Shown here piece after piece: positions 3,644 to 16,437 of a stretch of 32,701 bases of DNA. Below the pieces are notes generated by a model. The model searched no databases and had not been told where the DNA came from. It saw only the letters and a program-made list of their open reading frames with translations. The position numbers were made by a program, and so were the translations under genes. Within the stretch, counting starts at the first letter, position 1, and the number at the start of each line of letters is the position of its first letter. The stretch is from Acidobacteriota bacterium (GTDB lineage: Bacteria; Acidobacteriota; Blastocatellia; Pyrinomonadales; Pyrinomonadaceae). The stretch is taken from assembly GCA_020200095.1 (NCBI GenBank), contig JAIVJJ010000242.1, positions 1-32,701 of the forward strand, given 5' to 3'.

Positions 3644-4387
3644 GTGATGTCAGAAGTTTTATTATTAATGTTTTCAACCTCGACGGCGACAGTTTTGTCT
3701 CTGGGATTTTTCCTCGGACTTAAACACGCCACCGAAGCCGACCATCTGGCGGCAGTTTCAACAATTGTAACTGAACGCCGAAGCCTTTTTAGCTCGGCTC
3801 TCGTCGGCGGTTTGTGGGGTTTGGGACATACGATTTCGCTTTTCGTCGCGGGAATTTTTGTTCTGCTTCTGAATTTTCAAATCAGCGAAAGAACCGAGCG
3901 AATGCTTGAATTCGGCGTCGGTGTGATGCTTGTTTTTCTTGGATTGAATGTCTTACGAAAAATTATTCAAGGCGGAACGCTTCATTTTCATTCTCACGAA
4001 CACGGCGGACACAAGCACATTCACCCACATCTTCACGAGCACGGACAAGAAGACGAACCGCACTCGCATCACGGATTTTCATTTAGTCCGCGCTCTTTGA
4101 TCATCGGAATGGTTCACGGTTTGGCTGGAAGCGCGGCTTTGATGCTGCTCGTAATCCCGACTATTAATTCAACCGCGATGGGCTTGCTTTACATCGTAAT
4201 TTTCGGTGTCGGCTCAATCGGCGGAATGATGCTGATGAGTTTTCTGGTTAGCCTTCCATTTCAAATTACCGCGCTGCGCTTTAATCGTTTCAATCTTCTG
4301 CTGCAATGCATCGCCGGACTGTTCAGTGTCGCTCTCGGACTTCTTATCATTTACGAAAAAGGCATTACCGAAGGTTTATTGGGTTAA
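3644..4387 (+). CDS. NiCoT/UreH-like nickel/cobalt transporter
   Basis: HATEADH matches the HX4DH signature of nickel/cobalt permeases; multiple TM helices and a short His-rich loop (HFHSHEHGGHKHIHPHLHEHG). Confidence 0.8.
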   Translation: MMSEVLLLMFSTSTATVLSLGFFLGLKHATEADHLAAVSTIVTERRSLFSSALVGGLWGLGHTISLFVAGIFVLLLNFQISERTERMLEFGVGVMLVFLGLNVLRKIIQGGTLHFHSHEHGGHKHIHPHLHEHGQEDEPHSHHGFSFSPRSLIIGMVHGLAGSAALMLLVIPTINSTAMGLLYIVIFGVGSIGGMMLMSFLVSLPFQITALRFNRFNLLLQCIAGLFSVALGLLIIYEKGITEGLLG

Positions 4388-4403
4388 TACGGTTTTATTA
4401 AGT

Positions 4404-5129
4404 TTAAGCCGCAATTTTGTGAATGAATGGCATTTCATCCCAAGTTTTACCTTCGAGGAGCCGTCCTGTTTTCTTTTTATTAACTCCGCCCCACTGTTTG
4501 AAGAAAAAAGGAACATTAAAACTTTGGCATTGCCCACGAATGTCTAAAACCCATTCTTCTTTTATCGGTCTTGCACCATAACCACTTTCCCCACCGACAA
4601 TCACCCAATCAATTTCCGTTAGGTCAAGATTTTTTAATGAGCCGAGCAGTGGTTCTAAAGATAAGAATTTTACCTTCGCATTGGTATGTCGTAAATCATC
4701 AATTCGATGAACGTATTTTTGGTTTTCAACCGAAACGCCCATCCAAATATTCGGCGACCATTCAAGTTGAGAACTTAACTCTGCTAGTCTATCGGCACGT
4801 TTAGTTAAAACCTGAAACCGATGCCAATAAGCGCGTTTCATAACATCGAAGACTTGCTGAATATAATCAAGCGGAATATCTTTATGAAAAAGGTCGCTCA
4901 TCGAATTAACAAAAATTGTTTGCGGTTTTTTCCAGCCGAGCGGAAGATCAAGCATTTGTGGCTGCGTTGTTAGTTTAAAGCCATTTTTATAATTAGATTG
5001 TCCCATTGCCTTGAGCCTTTTAGACAATCTTTCCGCATAGCAATTCTTGCAACCGGGACTAATTTTGTTGCAGCCGGTAACCGGATTCCAAGTGCTTTCC
5101 GTCCATTCAATTGGTGAACCTGACGCCAC
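4404..5129 (-). CDS. Phage Gp37/Gp68 family (DUF5131) three-Cys-motif protein
   Basis: [31 protein letters not shown] (C-x6-C-x2-C), [55 protein letters not shown] start overlaps the upstream TAG stop by one nt (TAGTG). Confidence 0.9.
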
Positions 5130-5971
5130 TATCGTAACTCCTTGTCTTTATATTTTCTGAGTATATAACTGCCAATTTTGTTTGCCGTTTCATTTTGTGA
5201 AGCAAAAAACAAATAATAAAGTGTTGCTCCTGTCGAATTTCTCATAGGGATAGGTTCAGGAACAAATTGAAAGCCTGCTACTTTTTGACGTCGTTCTCGA
5301 AACCTCTCTGCAATTGCCTGATTAGATTCCTTTTCTTTAATTTCTTCTCCGAACAAGCTTCCTTGTGGCGAATTTGAATAAGATACCTTTTTCCAAGATT
5401 CATCACCCCAGAATGATGTCATTCTGTCAATATATTCTTGCTCGACAGCATTAGGATTTCTTAAAAGAGCAGTTCTATTCATATCCATAGTTGGAAAATT
5501 CAGAAAAACATCTAAACTTTTCATTTCTCCTGCCTTTTTAAGAACTTCCCACTTTAAATGTAAACCAAAAGGGTCAAGCAAACACAATCCACGACGGTAA
5601 TCTTCATATCTAACATTTGGAAAAACCTTTTCTAACAGAATTTTATTACAATCACCTTGATAGACAAAAACATTTGAGTAATCCTTTGTTAGCTCGGCTA
5701 AGAAACGAGCCTTCTTTCCATCAAGGTCAATCAAGTGTAGTTCTTTAAAGGGCGGTTCGACATAGAGCGCATTTAGCGGACTTCCGGCAACAATTTCTTT
5801 GCTTGTTTTGGAAATGTGTATTCCTGCGCCTGCAAAAGCGTCAATATATATATGTTTTAAGTAACTTTGTTTTGAGAGAATAATTGAATATTTTTTTGCA
5901 TACTCTCTGATAATTTCTAACTTTATTTCCGACCAATATCCTATTTCACTAATTCGCGGGAGTTTTTCCAT
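5129..5971 (-). CDS. tcmP: Three-Cys-motif partner protein TcmP
   Basis: [75 protein letters not shown] at 5971 is preferred over the TTG at 6046 in the ORF track, because conserved sequence starts at [15 protein letters not shown]. Confidence 0.85.
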
Positions 5972-6103
5972 TTTTAATTTCCGGATGTGAGTTGATTTTA
6001 TTATTGAATACGGGTTGCATTTTACTATTTTTTCAAAAGTATTCAATAACTTTTTAATCGTGCTTTAATAGCCGAAAAGATAAAAGGAATTTAGAATGTT
6101 GGA

Positions 6104-8086
6104 ATGATTAGCTTCGGCATAGAAAATTGCACCAATTTTGATAAATCTTCTTCGAGCGAATGGCTCGAAACAAACGGCATCGGCGGATTTGCTTCATCAA
6201 CCGTTTCGGGTGCGAACACGCGCCGTTATCACGGGCTTTTAACTGCCGCGACGAATCCACCGCTCGGTCGCGTAACAATGCTTTCAAAGTTTGAAGAAAC
6301 GCTTTTTGTTGACGGAAAATCCCTCGACCTTTCGACAAATCAATACCCGAACGCAATTTATCCGAACGGCTACAAATACCTGAAAAACTTTCGGCTCGCG
6401 CCTTTTCCCATTTGGACTTTTGAAGTTGAAGGCGTCGAGATTGAAAAGAAAGTTTTTATGGTTTACGGACAAAATACGACAGTTTGTCAGTGGTCAATCA
6501 AAAATCAATCGCAAATCGCAAATCGCAAATTGCAAATCGAACTAAAACCGCTTTTGTCTTTTGTTGATTATCACAGTTTGCAGCACGAAAATTCCGATAT
6601 AAATCCGACTTTTGAAGTTTCAAATAATCTTGTTTCGATTCATCCTTTTTTGGAGATGCCTGCGCTTTATTTTGCTCACGATGCCTTTGCGGTTGAAAAA
6701 ACCGGAGTTTGGTATCGCAATTTTGAATACTCGATTGAGCGCGAGCGCGGTTTCGACTTTCGTGAAGATTTGTTTCAGCCGTTCGCTTTGAAGTTTGATT
6801 TATCGGAAAGAGCAATTGTTGTTGTTTCAACGGAATCGCAAAAAGTTTTTGACGCGCAAAATTTTGAAAATGAAGAAATCGAACGGCGAGAAGCATTGAT
6901 AAAAACCGCCGATGCAAAAGATGATTTTACCAAACAACTCACTCTCGCTGCCGACCATTTCATTGTCTCGCGTGGTGCGGGAAAAACAATAATCGCCGGT
7001 TATCATTGGTTTTCCGATTGGGGACGCGACACGATGATTGCCTTAAACGGTTTGACTCTGGCGACAAATCGAGCCGAAATCGCTAAAGAAATTTTGCTGG
7101 AATTTTCCAAACACATTTCCGAAGGAATGTTGCCGAACCGCTTTCCCGACGCGGGTGAAACTCCCGAATATAATACGGTGGACGCAACGCTCTGGTATTT
7201 TGAAGCCGTTCGCTCTTATACCGAAAAAACGAATGATTATGCTTTTGTTCGCAAAAATCTTTACGAAAAACTTATCGAAATTATTCTCTGGCATCTGAAA
7301 GGCACGCGTTACCAAATTCACGTTGACACCGACGGACTTCTTTTCGCAGGTGAAAAAGGCGTCCAATTAACTTGGATGGACGCCAAAATCGGTGATTACG
7401 TAGTTACGCCGCGCACAGGAAAAGCCGTTGAGATTCAAGCGCTCTGGTATAACTCTTTATGCATAATGGCAGATTTTGCCAAAAGATTTGGCGATGAAAA
7501 AGACCAAAAAAGATATTTGGAAATGGCAGATGCAGCGAAGAAAAGTTTCAATCAAATTTTTTGGAACGAAGCCGAAGAATGTTTATTTGACGCGATTAAC
7601 GGCGAGGAAAAAGACGCTTCGGTCAGACCGAATCAAATTTTCGCCATAAGTTTGTCGAACACAATGTTAAGCATTGAAAGAGCGCGAAAAGTTGTCAAAA
7701 AAATTGAAGCTGAGTTATTAACGCCTTTCGGTTTGCGCTCGCTTTCGTCGAAAGATAAAAATTATCGTCCCGTTTGTTCCGGCTCGCCTTTTGAACGCGA
7801 TTCCGCATATCATCAAGGCACTATCTGGGCGTGGCTGATTGGCGCTTTCGTTGACGCATATCGAAAAGTTAATACAAACGGACAAAAAACCGAAAATCGA
7901 ATAAATGAAATTTTAGAAGGTTTCAAAAATCATTTAACGGGCGCGGGCGTCGGACAAATCTCGGAAATTTTCGACGGCGCCGCGCCGCACAATCCGCGCG
8001 GCTGTATTGCGCAGGCGTGGAGCGTGGCGGAAGTTTTGCGCGTTTCAAGAGCAGAAGCCCGCGCCGTAAGCAAGGAGAAAATATAA
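6104..8086 (+). CDS. Glycogen debranching enzyme (amylo-alpha-1,6-glucosidase family)
   Basis: WLETNGIGGFASSTVSGANTRRYHGLL, AGYHWFSDWGRDTMIALNGLTL, PFGLRSLSSKDKNYRPVC, GQISEIFDGAAPHNPRGCIAQAWSVAEVLR. Confidence 0.9.
   Translation: MISFGIENCTNFDKSSSSEWLETNGIGGFASSTVSGANTRRYHGLLTAATNPPLGRVTMLSKFEETLFVDGKSLDLSTNQYPNAIYPNGYKYLKNFRLAPFPIWTFEVEGVEIEKKVFMVYGQNTTVCQWSIKNQSQIANRKLQIELKPLLSFVDYHSLQHENSDINPTFEVSNNLVSIHPFLEMPALYFAHDAFAVEKTGVWYRNFEYSIERERGFDFREDLFQPFALKFDLSERAIVVVSTESQKVFDAQNFENEEIERREALIKTADAKDDFTKQLTLAADHFIVSRGAGKTIIAGYHWFSDWGRDTMIALNGLTLATNRAEIAKEILLEFSKHISEGMLPNRFPDAGETPEYNTVDATLWYFEAVRSYTEKTNDYAFVRKNLYEKLIEIILWHLKGTRYQIHVDTDGLLFAGEKGVQLTWMDAKIGDYVVTPRTGKAVEIQALWYNSLCIMADFAKRFGDEKDQKRYLEMADAAKKSFNQIFWNEAEECLFDAINGEEKDASVRPNQIFAISLSNTMLSIERARKVVKKIEAELLTPFGLRSLSSKDKNYRPVCSGSPFERDSAYHQGTIWAWLIGAFVDAYRKVNTNGQKTENRINEILEGFKNHLTGAGVGQISEIFDGAAPHNPRGCIAQAWSVAEVLRVSRAEARAVSKEKI
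6511..6538. repeat. Heptanucleotide tandem repeat (GCAAATC)x4, third copy GCAAATT, inside the debranching-enzyme CDS
   Basis: Read directly: GCAAATC GCAAATC GCAAATT GCAAATC. Confidence 0.9.
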
Positions 8087-11467: not shown

Positions 11468-13951
11468 TTACTGCGGCAGACCAATGCGCCGCAACAAATC
11501 TTGAAAGCGCGGGTCGGATTTCAAACTGTCAAAAGATGTGTCAACTTTCAAAAAAGTTATCGCATCGTCGTGTTCGGCAAATGCCTTCTCTAACCATTCG
11601 AAAGCGCGTTCCTTTTCGCCAAGCCGCGCATAGTCTGCGGCAACATATACAGCCGAGCCTATGCCTTGTTCATATCGTTTCAAATCATTCTCAAGAGTCT
11701 TGCGCCAAAAGCCAGTTGCACCACTTGTCTTTATCGCCTGCCGAAAATCTGTGACTTTTTGTTCGCAGCTTTTTGCCGTTTCGATATTCAAAAGAACTTC
11801 GCCTTTACAACTAAGCTCGATTGACTCTTCATACATCCCTTTTTCAGCATACATACCAGCAAGAAACGCGTAAGGAAGGGGATATGTCGGCTCGGTTTCA
11901 ATCAATTTTTTGAATTGCGCCATAGCTTCATCATTACGACGCGATTCCCAATAGCGCAACCCAAGATTCAAATTGACGGCGCGGGAGAATGGGTCAATCT
12001 CGTAAGCTCTTTTTATTTCGGCGATGGCTTCGTCGCGCCGCTCCAATCTGGCAAGCAATTCCGAATACCATTGGCGTGCGGTGGCAAAATTCGGATTTAG
12101 TTCAATAGCGCGTTTGTAATGATTTTCGGCTCCATCGAAATTCCAATCGTCAATTTTTGCTTCCGCTAATACGGCATAGGCTTCGGGAAGATTGTTATCG
12201 AGTTCTAACGCTTTTAGTGCTGCCGCTTTTGCTTTCAGTCGAATTTCTCTATCTTCTTGTCTGGTGAGTGGGGCATTATCACTGTAAACTTCATATGCCA
12301 TCGCCAATCCGCCATAAGCCTTTGCATAAGCGGGGTCTTTGTCAACAGCTTGCTGAAACAGCGAGATGGCTTGCTTGAGATCGTCCGGCGTGCGTTTGTT
12401 CCAATGATAAAGACCTTTGAGATAAAGTTGATAGGCTTCCGGGTTTTCAGTATAAGTTTTCGCTACTTGTTGTTCCTGTGCGCCCGATAGTTTTGTTTTT
12501 AATTTGTTTGAAACATCTTTCGCAACGTCGCTCTGCAATGAAACGAGATTGTTCATTGAACGGTTGTAGTCTGCTTTCCACAAAACATTTTCACTTGCCG
12601 CATCAATCAATTCCACATATAAAGTTAAATCATTTCCGCGCTGCACAACACGCCCCGTTAAAATCGCTTGCACACTTAATTCCTGCCCGATTCGTTTCGG
12701 GTCAATCTCCTTACCCTTGTATCGAAACACGGAAGCGCGGGCTTTCACGTTGAGTTTCGGAATTTGCGAGAGACTTCCGATTAGTGATTCGGTCATTCCG
12801 TCAGATAAATACTCATTGTCGGCATTGCCGCTTTCGTTGACGAACGGCAAGACGGCGATTGATTCGATTTGTTTTGTCGAACGCCCCGCAAAATACCAGT
12901 AGCCCAAACCAATTGATGCAAGAAGTAAAACCATTAACCCGATAGCGAAACCGATTTTGTGGCTTTTTATTTCAGATACAACATATTCGGCATTTGAAGT
13001 TGTATGGGCAACATCAGTTATTGTCGCATTAAGAATCTGCGTCTTTGATTCTTCTCGATTTGGCGGAGAGGTTCGTTCCAATTTACTTTGAAATTTCAAT
13101 TCTTCTTTTACATCTTCCAAATCAATTAGCAAATCTTTCGCAGTTTGATACCTTTTGTCTGCGCCCTTTTGCAATGTCTTTCTGACAATGCGTTGTAAAT
13201 CCGATGGCAAATTTTCATCAAGCGGTAAAGGCTCTTTTGTTAAAATCGCAGCAATCGTATCGCTGGTCGTTTCGCCTGTAAAAGGTTGTCGCCCCGTGAG
13301 CATTTCATACAAACAAACTCCTAAACTCCAAACATCTGTTCTTTCGTCAATATCTTTCCCACGCGCTTGTTCTGGCGACATATATCCGACAGTTCCCATT
13401 ATCATTCCTGCCTTTGTATTAACCTGAGCGCGTGTTTCTCCTTCGGCATCGAAGATTTCTGATTTCTTCTCAATTAGTTTTGCCAGACCGAAATCAAGGA
13501 TTTTCACATAACCATCTCGACGAATCATTATGTTTTCCGGCTTTATGTCTCGATGAATAATATGTGCTTGATGGGCAACTGATAAGGCTGCGGCAATCTG
13601 TTCGGAAATTCTTACCGTTTCATAAACATCTAAATCATTTTTCTCTATCTTTTGGCGCAAGGTATCGCCTTCGATGTATTCCGTAGCGATAAACAATTGG
13701 TCACCTGTTTCGCCAATTTCGTGAATGGTAATGATATTCGGATGATTAAGCGCGGAAGCAGCTTGCGCTTCACGTTCAAAACGAAGCAAGCGTTCTTTAT
13801 CGGTGGCTATATTTTCGGGTAGAATTTTGAGCGCGACTTTGCGATTAAGGCGAATATCTTCAGCTAGATAAACTTCACCCATTCCGCCAGCCCCGATTGG
13901 AGAGAGGATTTCGTAACGTCCAAGTTTTGTATGAGCAGCAATTGTCATCAC
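11468..13951 (-). CDS. Ser/Thr protein kinase with TM, TolB/FlgO-like domain and TPR repeats (paralog A, intact)
   Basis: GAGGMGEVYLAED, HRDIKPENIMI, DFGLAKL, MSPEQARGK; TM VLLLASIGLGYWYFA; IAVLPFVNESGNADNEYLSDGMTESL; C-terminal TPRs. Confidence 0.92.
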   Translation of the reverse strand: MMTIAAHTKLGRYEILSPIGAGGMGEVYLAEDIRLNRKVALKILPENIATDKERLLRFEREAQAASALNHPNIITIHEIGETGDQLFIATEYIEGDTLRQKIEKNDLDVYETVRISEQIAAALSVAHQAHIIHRDIKPENIMIRRDGYVKILDFGLAKLIEKKSEIFDAEGETRAQVNTKAGMIMGTVGYMSPEQARGKDIDERTDVWSLGVCLYEMLTGRQPFTGETTSDTIAAILTKEPLPLDENLPSDLQRIVRKTLQKGADKRYQTAKDLLIDLEDVKEELKFQSKLERTSPPNREESKTQILNATITDVAHTTSNAEYVVSEIKSHKIGFAIGLMVLLLASIGLGYWYFAGRSTKQIESIAVLPFVNESGNADNEYLSDGMTESLIGSLSQIPKLNVKARASVFRYKGKEIDPKRIGQELSVQAILTGRVVQRGNDLTLYVELIDAASENVLWKADYNRSMNNLVSLQSDVAKDVSNKLKTKLSGAQEQQVAKTYTENPEAYQLYLKGLYHWNKRTPDDLKQAISLFQQAVDKDPAYAKAYGGLAMAYEVYSDNAPLTRQEDREIRLKAKAAALKALELDNNLPEAYAVLAEAKIDDWNFDGAENHYKRAIELNPNFATARQWYSELLARLERRDEAIAEIKRAYEIDPFSRAVNLNLGLRYWESRRNDEAMAQFKKLIETEPTYPLPYAFLAGMYAEKGMYEESIELSCKGEVLLNIETAKSCEQKVTDFRQAIKTSGATGFWRKTLENDLKRYEQGIGSAVYVAADYARLGEKERAFEWLEKAFAEHDDAITFLKVDTSFDSLKSDPRFQDLLRRIGLPQ

Positions 13952-13957
13952 AACCTT

Positions 13958-16437
13958 TTACTGCGGCAGACCTATTCGCCGCAGCAAATCCTGAAAGCGC
14001 GGGTCGGATTTCAAACTGTCAAAAGATTTATTAACTTTCAAATTAGTTATATTAACTTCGTGTTCGGCAAATGCCTTTTCTAACCATTCGAAAGCACGTT
14101 CCTTTTCTCCAAGCCGCGAATAGGTTGAAGCGACAGCGACAGCCGAGCCGATGCCTCGCTCATAACGTTCCAAATCATACTCAAGAGCCTTGCGCCAAAA
14201 GCCAGTTGCACCACTTGTCTTTATAGCCTGCCGAAAATCCGCGACTTTTTGTTCGCAGCTTTCTACTGTTTCGGTATTCAAAAGAACTTGCGCTTTACAC
14301 CTAAGCTCGAGGGATTCTTCATACATCCCCTCATCAGCATAGATGTCGGCGAGACGCGAATAAGGTGGGGGATACGTCGGATCGGTTTCAATCAATTTTT
14401 TGAATTGTGCAATAGCTTCATCATTACGACGCAATGCCAAGTAGCGCAGCCCGAGATTCACATTGACGGCGCGGGAGAATGGGTCAAGTTCGTAAGCTCT
14501 TTTTATTTCTGCGAGGGCTTCATCTAGTCGTCCAAGACTTGCGAGCAACACCGAATACCATTGGTGTGCGGTGGCAAAATTCGGATTTAGTTCAATAGCG
14601 CGTTTGAAATCATTTTCTGCTTCAGCAAAATCCCAATCGTAATTTTTTCTACTCGCTAATACGGCGTAGGCTTCGGCAAGATTGCTATCGAGTTCTAACG
14701 CTTTATGCGCTGCCGCTTTTGCTTTTAATTGCATTTCGCTGCGTTCCTGCTTGGTAACTGCGGCATTACTGATGAAAACTTCATAAGCCATCGCCAAGCC
14801 GCCATAAGCCTTAGCGTAGCTTGGGTCTTTGTCTACAGCTTGCTGAAACAGCGTGATGCTAGTTTGAGGTCGTCAGATGTGCGCTTGTTCCAATGATAAA
14901 GACCTTTGAGATAAAGCTGATATGCTTCCGCGTTTTCGGTGTAAGTTTTTGTTACCTGTTCTTCAACTGCGCCTGACAATTTTGTTTTTAATTTGTCCGA
15001 TACGTCTTTCGCAATGTCGCTCTGTAGTGAAACAAGATTGCTCATTGAACGGGCGTAGTTATCCTTCCACAGAACATTTTCTGTTGCCGCATCAATTAGT
15101 TCGATGTATAAAGTTAAATCCTGTCCGCGCTGAACAATTCGCCCTGTTAGAATCGCTTGAACGGATAACTCCTGCCCAATTCGTTTTGGGTCAATTTCCT
15201 TACCCTTATAACGAAACACGGAAGTTCTGGCTTTCACGTTTAGGTTTGGAAGCTGTGAGAGACTGCCGATAAGCGATTCCGTCATCCCGTCCGACAAATA
15301 TTCGTTATCCGCGTTGCCACTTTCATTAACAAAAGGCAAAACAGCTATTGAATCTATCTGTTTGGTTGAACGCGCCGTGAAATACCAATAACCCAAACCG
15401 ATTGACGCGAGAAGCAAAACTATCAGCCCAATAACGAAACTGCGTTTGTGTTGTTTGATTTCGCTTGCTATGTATTCGGCGCTTGAAGCCATGTGCGGTG
15501 CGGCGATTGTTGTCGCGCTGATAATTTGCGTTTTCGCTTCTTCTCGATTCGGCGAAGCGGTGCGTTCCAGCTTGTTTTGAAATTCTAGCTCTTGCTTGAT
15601 GTGTTTCAAATCAATCAACAAATCTCGCGCCGTTTGATAGCGTTCTTCGCGGTCTTTCCGCAAACACTTCTCAACGATGCGCCGTAACTCTTTAGGTATT
15701 TCAGTTTCATCTAAAGGCGCAGGCTCTCGGTGCAGAATCGAGCCGATAATGTCGAGTGCGTTCTCGCCCTCAAATGGCGGTTTCCCCGAAAGCATTTCAT
15801 AGAGCATCACTCCGAAACTGAAAATATCCGTCCGCGCATCAACCGTTTTTCCTCTAGCTTGTTCGGGCGACATATACGCGGCTGTTCCGATTATCGTTCC
15901 CGGACTCGTTTCTGCTTTTATCGCTGTTGCCGCTTCCGAATTGGTTTCGTGTTGTTTTTCGACGAGTTTGGCAATTCCGAAATCAAGCAGTTTCGCCAAA
16001 TTGTCAGAGCGAATCATCACGTTTTCGGGTTTGATGTCGCGGTGAACAATACCTGCCGCGTGTGCCGCATTGAGCGCGGAGGCGACTTGAATTGCAACTT
16101 CGAGAATGAAGCTCAATTCCGGCAATTGATCTTTCAGTCGTTTGTACAAAGTCTCGCCTTCGACGTATTCGGCGGCGATGAAATTGGTTTTAGCAACTTC
16201 ACCGATTTCGTAAATCGTCAAAATGTTCGGATGATTCAAAGCGGAAGCTGCTTTTGCTTCGCGGACAAAACGGCGCATCCGCTCCTCGTTTTCAGCGAGA
16301 GTTTCGGGCAGGATTTTCAAAGCAACTTTGCGTTCAAGGCGCGTATCTTCAGCGAGGTATACTTCACCCATTCCACCGACACCGAGTAGTTTGCGTATCT
16401 CAAAATGACCTAGCCGAGTATGGGGTGCGAACCTCAT
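13958..16437 (-). pseudogene. Ser/Thr protein kinase-TPR paralog B, split by a frameshift near 14857-14859 (ORFs 14833-16437 and 13958-14797)
   Basis: ORF 1 ends ...KRTSDDLKLASRCFSKL* exactly where paralog A reads ...KRTPDDLKQAISLFQQAVDKDPAYAKAYGGLAMAYEV; ORF 2 resumes MAMAYEV. Nucleotide comparison shows one base missing (A: gatggcttgcttgag; B: gatgctagtttgag). Confidence 0.85.

Follow-up and report, generated by a model that had tools for sequence, protein, structure and literature searches.

Apparent in-place exchange of TcmP beside a probable radical-SAM-type DUF5131 protein in an Acidobacteriota family

Introduction

Proteins of the TcmP and DUF5131 (Gp37/Gp68) families occur across bacteria, archaea, phages and plasmids, and the literature that we searched describes no biochemistry for them. 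The closest described system is PDC-M41, a candidate phage-defence system in the PADLOC catalogue that consists of two gene models, PDC-M41A (TcmP) and PDC-M41B (DUF5131). In its sister, PDC-M30, the model M30B represents the same DUF5131 family as M41B. The PDC set is unpublished or largely unvalidated (PMC11811056, PMC12988326). Our searches of the open-access literature yielded no paper on the function of TcmP or DUF5131 and no experimental report of phage protection by PDC-M41, in agreement with the initial annotation of the locus studied here, which knew of no firm biochemical function.

Some contexts in which the two families are found have been described. The TcmP protein SMa2243 is encoded next to the defence gene hna and is co-regulated with it (PMC12445080). 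The variable region between integrase and repressor is a known source of prophage defence genes (PMC5559632), and regions of a similar kind in Gordonia prophages encode abortive defence, as in CarolAnn, by a different gene pair (PMC6426606).

Here we analyse a tcmP-DUF5131 pair from an Acidobacteriota genome, located in a stretch of DNA of 32,701 nucleotides that we call the window. The two overlapping genes match PDC-M41A (237 bits, TcmP) and PDC-M41B (418 bits, DUF5131), and the pair agrees with PDC-M41 in both models and in adjacency, with no structural difference. Judged by these profile matches it is an already catalogued PDC-M41 pair of known kind, and its earlier description as a candidate uncharacterized module is corrected to that extent. 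New beyond the PDC catalogue are the fold assignments, the empty insertion site, and the exchange of M30A- and M41A-type partners beside one DUF5131 lineage.

Results

Organization of the locus

The tcmP gene (5129-5971, minus strand) encodes an RlmJ-like protein with a predicted class I SAM-methyltransferase fold; it has an ATG start and specifies 280 amino acids, or 305 if translation begins at an in-frame TTG at 6046. Its TAG stop codon (5129-5131, minus strand) overlaps the DUF5131 gene (4404-5129, minus strand; 241 amino acids) by one nucleotide: the G at 5129 both ends this stop codon and opens the GTG start. A gap of 16 nucleotides (4388-4403) forms the left edge of the extra DNA at this site and separates the convergent stops at 4387 and 4404. 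The gene on the far side of this gap is nickel/cobalt transporter-like (3644-4387, plus strand), and its orthologues adjoin the empty site in the congeneric genomes G003, G004 and G008. The right flank of the backbone is a glycogen debranching enzyme gene (6104-8086, plus strand), which has orthologues in 8 of 9 congeners; a congener orthologue matched Pfam GDE_N/GDE_C in a scan of neighbouring genes. The initial annotation had read this layout correctly, including the TAG/GTG overlap, the 16-nucleotide gap and the plus-strand metal-transport and glycogen genes on either side.

The family names that it proposed are supported as well, by matches too strong to be due to chance. The DUF5131 protein matches PF07505 with 346 bits (345.7) over profile positions 2-243 of 243, above the gathering cut-off, and TcmP matches TIGR04474 with 193 bits against a curated cut-off of 53. 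The DUF5131 protein is the sole member of its family found in the genome. GC content over the pair is 34-40%, compared with about 43-49% in most flanking 500-bp segments.

Upstream of tcmP lies a candidate control region (6001-6049, minus strand), in which a perfect 11-bp inverted repeat, with arms TTATTGAATAC (6001-6011) and GTATTCAATAA (6039-6049) and 27 nucleotides between them, encloses a sigma-70-like site, TTGAAT-16-TAAAAT (6046-6019). Among base-shuffled controls of 132 nucleotides, 0.35% contained a perfect repeat of 11 bp or more, and the repeat was not found upstream of tcmP in the related loci that we checked. It is a possible operator. Elsewhere in the window, the debranching enzyme gene contains a tandem 7-nucleotide unit, AATCGCA, in 4.7 copies (6507-6539), and positions 11468-16437 hold two tandem serine/threonine-kinase-TPR genes, the second of which an apparent frameshift has split into open reading frames at 14833-16437 and 13958-14797.

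TcmP as a distant relative of RlmJ

TcmP carries a motif I, D44-x-F-A-G-A-G50, a G63-S-P motif and a motif IV, D133-P-F-G136; D44 and D133 are invariant in 53 homologues. The stretches DAFAGAG, LIDLDGKK and DPFG singled out in the initial annotation are all there. An AlphaFold model built from these 53 homologues (pLDDT 95.3) found entries of E. coli RlmJ as its best solved matches in Foldseek (E 1.6e-7, TM 0.54). Consistent with this, a TcmP profile compared with PDB sequences retrieved RlmJ at E 3e-4 in an alignment spanning motif I, GSP and motif IV, hhalign aligned TcmP with RlmJ at E 1e-6, and TIGR04474 picks up E. coli RlmJ itself with a weak score (E 1.2e-3). Searches of solved structures by sequence with single TcmP or DUF5131 proteins, or with a DUF5131 profile, returned nothing useful.

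RlmJ (b3499 of E. coli) is the N6-methyltransferase of 23S rRNA A2030. TcmP shares with it the class I methyltransferase fold, the D-x-x-AG-G form of motif I, the GSP motif and an acidic motif IV. However, motif IV of RlmJ is DPPY, whereas TcmP has DP[YF]G, and the TcmP alignments contain LDPFG, LDPYG or IDPFG. Window TcmP is also much shorter between motif I and GSP, where RlmJ has a long stretch, and the family differs from RlmJ in its patchy mobile distribution and its obligate DUF5131 neighbour. From the sequence and model comparisons we take TcmP to be a distant RlmJ relative with a methyltransferase fold; because DPPY is absent, we do not file it as an RlmJ, and methylation by TcmP is not assured. 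The earlier reading of the first protein as methyltransferase-like is supported by the Foldseek, profile and TIGR04474 links.

DUF5131 as a probable radical-SAM-type barrel

The DUF5131 protein contains the motifs C20-x6-C27-x2-C30 (codons at 5072-5070, 5051-5049 and 5042-5040), N75SMSD79, T109KR111 and G179GESG183. The Cys pattern had been noticed before and is confirmed. The three Cys residues and GGE are invariant in 164 homologues, but the patterns used to collect these homologues included some of the Cys codons, and the conservation of GGESG and TKR is therefore less affected by bias.

The AlphaFold model (pLDDT 90.4) has a barrel-like alternation of strands and helices. Its top natural fold matches are viperin, a NifB-related entry and spore photoproduct lyase, all weak (E 4e-3 to 9e-3); with designed barrels set aside, viperin is the best (E 3.9e-3, TM 0.44). 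By sequence, the protein matches TIGR04471 (radical SAM mobile pair protein A) at E 8e-26, below the equivalog cut-off of that model. It did not match PF04055 in a Pfam profile search, and its CX6CX2C spacing differs from the canonical CX3CX2C, which is absent. Alignment of the DUF5131 profile by hhalign with each of 20 radical-SAM proteins encoded in the same genome gave nothing significant. True members of TIGR04471 were not found in 297 genomes of the phylum; the control was also silent, which makes this search uninformative.

A link to canonical enzymes is provided by a natural ParB_N-DUF5131 fusion (locus L255, 1145-2869), which adjoins a divergent tcmP and carries a canonical CX3CX2C motif, CLHDCPYC. 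This protein matches TIGR04471 (1.8e-22) and the Rv2578c radical SAM family (2.7e-4). By its sequence, it appears to bridge DUF5131 to canonical CX3CX2C radical SAM enzymes, and its ParB_N domain points to a DNA-linked function. DUF5131 resembles spore photoproduct lyase, Rv2578c-type radical SAM proteins and TIGR04471 proteins in a first-loop Cys triad followed by Tyr (CxxCY) and probably in its barrel-like predicted fold, and the ParB-DUF5131 protein connects them in sequence. It differs from spore photoproduct lyase and Rv2578c-type proteins, which have CX3CX2C, in its CX6CX2C spacing and in lacking PF04055, and from its radical SAM relatives in its own GGESG and FKQWG motifs, its small size (about 240 amino acids) and its exchangeable partner.

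We conclude that DUF5131 is probably a divergent radical-SAM-type barrel enzyme, predicted to bind an Fe-S cluster. The fold matches, TIGR04471 and the L255 bridge likewise make the earlier proposal of an Fe-S or metal-binding second protein probable. The structure comparison suggested in the initial annotation returned an RlmJ-like and a barrel-like fold, with D44/D133 and the Cys triad invariant.

Insertion site in the genus

We compared the site in nine genomes of the genus. The distance from the transporter stop to the debranching enzyme start is 1716 bp in the window, compared with 131, 129 and 120 bp in G003, G004 and G008, which have no pair at this site; the window therefore holds about 1.6 kb of extra DNA. 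G005 has a pair at this site too, oriented alike, and in G007 DUF5131 is found there on a contig edge. In G002 and G006 (L029:4664-7502 and L030:898-3741), genes resembling cbiM/cbiQ/cbiO, of a cobalt/nickel transport type and named by eye from the sequence, replace the second nickel transporter gene and the pair. A second site, in front of a saccharopine-dehydrogenase-like gene, carries the pair in G003 and G006, and a third carries it in G001, where DUF5131 is intact and TcmP looks truncated (L036:6183-7127 ends early). The family as a whole has at least three chromosomal sites for the pair.

In a tree of the flanking proteins (8 genomes), occupied and empty genomes are found in both halves of the genus, so that a single old insertion that was later lost several times explains the pattern about as well as a handful of separate insertions. 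The data support acquisition through insertion somewhere in the genus. The comparison with relatives that had been proposed as a check bears out an empty site, with transporter and debranching enzyme joined in three congeners, and the pair is not inherited at this position in all relatives. Because G005 and G007 carry DUF5131 here, a recent private gain by the window genome is not supported, and occupancy of the site may be older than the window species.

Co-occurrence and mobile context

Among 119 genomes of the family, DUF5131 is present in 35 and was not found in the other 84. TcmP is present in 25, all of them within the 35 (hypergeometric p 6e-18); it never occurs without DUF5131 (0 of 25 genomes), while DUF5131 does occur without TcmP. 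In the family genomes with coordinates that we compared, the two genes adjoin. Across phyla, TcmP is adjacent in 69 of 80 chromosomal DUF5131 loci, often with touching gene ends, in variable order and orientation that includes convergent pairs. In viral loci, 48 of 81 DUF5131 genes have no recognizable TcmP, and solo DUF5131 genes in phages lie near replication and recombination genes. Apparent TcmP-DUF5131 fusions in three long open reading frames (L072, L128 and L196) looked like upstream read-through in an overlapping frame rather than domains and were discarded.

Members of the DUF5131/TcmP family are present on 161 phage and 401 plasmid records, which supports the earlier statement that they occur on phages and mobile DNA. 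In Gordonia phage Angelique, a convergent pair (genes 42/43) lies between the integrase and the immunity repressor; the CarolAnn defence genes 43/44 were considered as the same pair and rejected as different from TcmP-DUF5131. Plasmid copies adjoin integrases and transposases. On pSymA of S. meliloti (L198:8221-13882), a record without gene annotation in which we called genes by open reading frame and profile, a DUF5131-TcmP pair and a second TcmP face each other, the latter followed by a helicase gene, giving two TcmPs in one defence locus. The helicase gene was identified as hna from the order of open reading frames, the helicase domain and the published description (PMC12445080). Genes for Fic, restriction-modification and HNH proteins are among the first neighbours across phyla; these counts are descriptive and claim no enrichment. 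In the family of the window, the pair is located between housekeeping genes and not in defence islands. Three divergent DUF5131 genes (L271:6481-7128, L272:6605-7225 and L065:4858-5529) adjoin lexA-type repressors, suggesting SOS-linked subtypes.

Exchange of the TcmP partner

In 97 paired loci (4656 locus pairs), the identity between two DUF5131 proteins says very little about that between their TcmPs (Spearman 0.13), and at DUF5131 identities of at least 80% the TcmP identity ranges from 14 to 93%, with a median of 28%. The window and its congener G005 are a case in point, with DUF5131 85-86% and TcmP about 30-34% identical. Many TcmPs from other phyla share about 51-60% identity with that of the window, and their DUF5131 partners only about 65-70% with the window DUF5131. 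These distant TcmPs are closer than that of G005 despite the lower DUF5131 identity, and fast evolution is therefore not the only cause.

The phylogenies agree with this. The DUF5131 tree unites the window with G005 (support 99/93), and an AU test rejects a single TcmP clade of window, G005, G003 and L040 (p 5e-39). Mapped on the DUF5131 tree, the TcmP subfamily switches 30 times, close to the 37.9 +/- 2.1 expected after shuffling; the TcmP tree needs 7 switches. Identities at the window site are 74-82% for the flanking genes and 86% for DUF5131, with TcmP at 34%. At the aat/saccharopine-dehydrogenase site, DUF5131 is 72-85% identical and TcmP 24-27% in exchanged pairs, compared with 48-67% in the others, and at a ROK-gene site DUF5131 is 80-85% identical and TcmP falls to 22-26% versus 56%. 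These sequence comparisons show TcmP to have been replaced repeatedly in place, beside a nearly unchanged DUF5131, at three chromosomal sites, and the two genes have largely separate histories and evolve almost independently. Of the acquired two-gene cassette proposed earlier, the mobility on phages and plasmids stands; the notion of simply one unit moving together does not, given the rank correlation, the AU test, the subfamily changes on the trees and the in-place replacements.

No DUF5131 alignment column predicted a long or a short TcmP partner above shuffled controls. In the absence of such a signature of TcmP length class, no interface can be inferred from covariation, and the result speaks for an interface common to all partners, or for the two proteins acting in turn on a shared substrate, more than for a complex tailored to each partner.

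Discussion

We tentatively prefer, at a little short of an even chance, to regard the pair as a compact mobile two-enzyme cassette for nucleic-acid modification that would most likely serve to exclude phages or rival mobile DNA. TcmP would bind or methylate a defined nucleic-acid site, and DUF5131 would act on the base so marked or presented, always by the same [4Fe-4S]/SAM radical reaction, whichever TcmP is present; the invading nucleic acid or the infected cell would be blocked or disabled. The exchange of partners suggests that TcmP sets the target. Supplying target choice, TcmP would therefore be the part that selection keeps exchanging, by analogy with hsdS in type I restriction systems, in which a conserved catalytic gene also lies beside a rapidly replaced specificity partner. 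The analogy goes no further, since TcmP-DUF5131 has no endonuclease or hsdS domain (profile searches found neither a restriction subunit nor an hsdS-type specificity domain in TcmP or DUF5131) and the variable partner itself has the predicted methyltransferase fold. The family and candidate-defence models, the RlmJ and radical-SAM links, the partner exchange, the restriction of TcmP to genomes with DUF5131, and the phage, plasmid and hna contexts count for an exclusion cassette. The housekeeping flanks in the family, the weak radical-SAM fold match (best natural E 3.9e-3) with PF04055 unmatched, the DP[YF]G form of motif IV and the 48 of 81 viral loci without recognizable TcmP count against it.

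A role in repair or protective modification, in which DUF5131 would be a spore-photoproduct-lyase-like repair enzyme, TcmP its lesion- or site-targeting partner, and mobile elements would protect their own DNA or RNA, is rather unlikely. Spore photoproduct lyase and Rv2578c-type radical SAM proteins are among the nearest relatives of DUF5131, and the lexA neighbours and the solo genes near phage replication and recombination functions fit such a role, but partner exchange this fast is rare for repair enzymes, the lexA neighbour is confined to three loci, none near the window, and PADLOC lists the pair among defence candidates. Touching gene ends, the compact two-gene unit, the prophage repressor and integrase beside the Angelique pair, and the abortive defence known from similar Gordonia regions (CarolAnn, with a different pair) could also be explained by a toxin-antitoxin-like or abortive-infection pair, of which one protein poisons, the other restrains and the variable partner reflects different phage triggers. 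We consider this quite unlikely: free gene order and orientation, including convergent pairs, would be unusual for toxin-antitoxin operons, DUF5131 is often solo, both proteins resemble enzymes whose active sites are conserved, and DUF5131 does not covary with TcmP class.

Small-molecule or nucleotide chemistry, with DUF5131 making a modified nucleotide or peptide (compare viperin) and TcmP methylating or releasing the product, takes its appeal from viperin being the best natural structural match of DUF5131; that match is weak, however, TcmP resembles a nucleic-acid methyltransferase, and a DUF5131 relative beside TcmP is fused to a ParB DNA-binding domain, which leaves this explanation very unlikely. 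Hardly credible is a vertically inherited chromosomal pair with a housekeeping role in RNA modification. The relationship of TcmP to RlmJ and the presence of DUF5131 at the same site in two other congeners speak for it, but the patchy distribution contradicts it and led us to reject it: most family genomes (84 of 119) gave no DUF5131, the site is empty in three congeners, and the genes use at least three chromosomal sites and are common on phages and plasmids.

The exclusion cassette could take a more specific form, a combinatorial modification immunity of a new chemical type, in which interchangeable RlmJ-like methyltransferases would mark different nucleic-acid sites and a constant radical-SAM enzyme would turn the mark, whichever site bears it, into an unusual hypermodified or damaged base that blocks invaders; in this full form we hold it to be unlikely. 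The fold links and the in-place partner exchange turn an unlabelled pair into a testable model, and the natural swaps at the same site offer matched alleles with which to test whether the target depends on TcmP.
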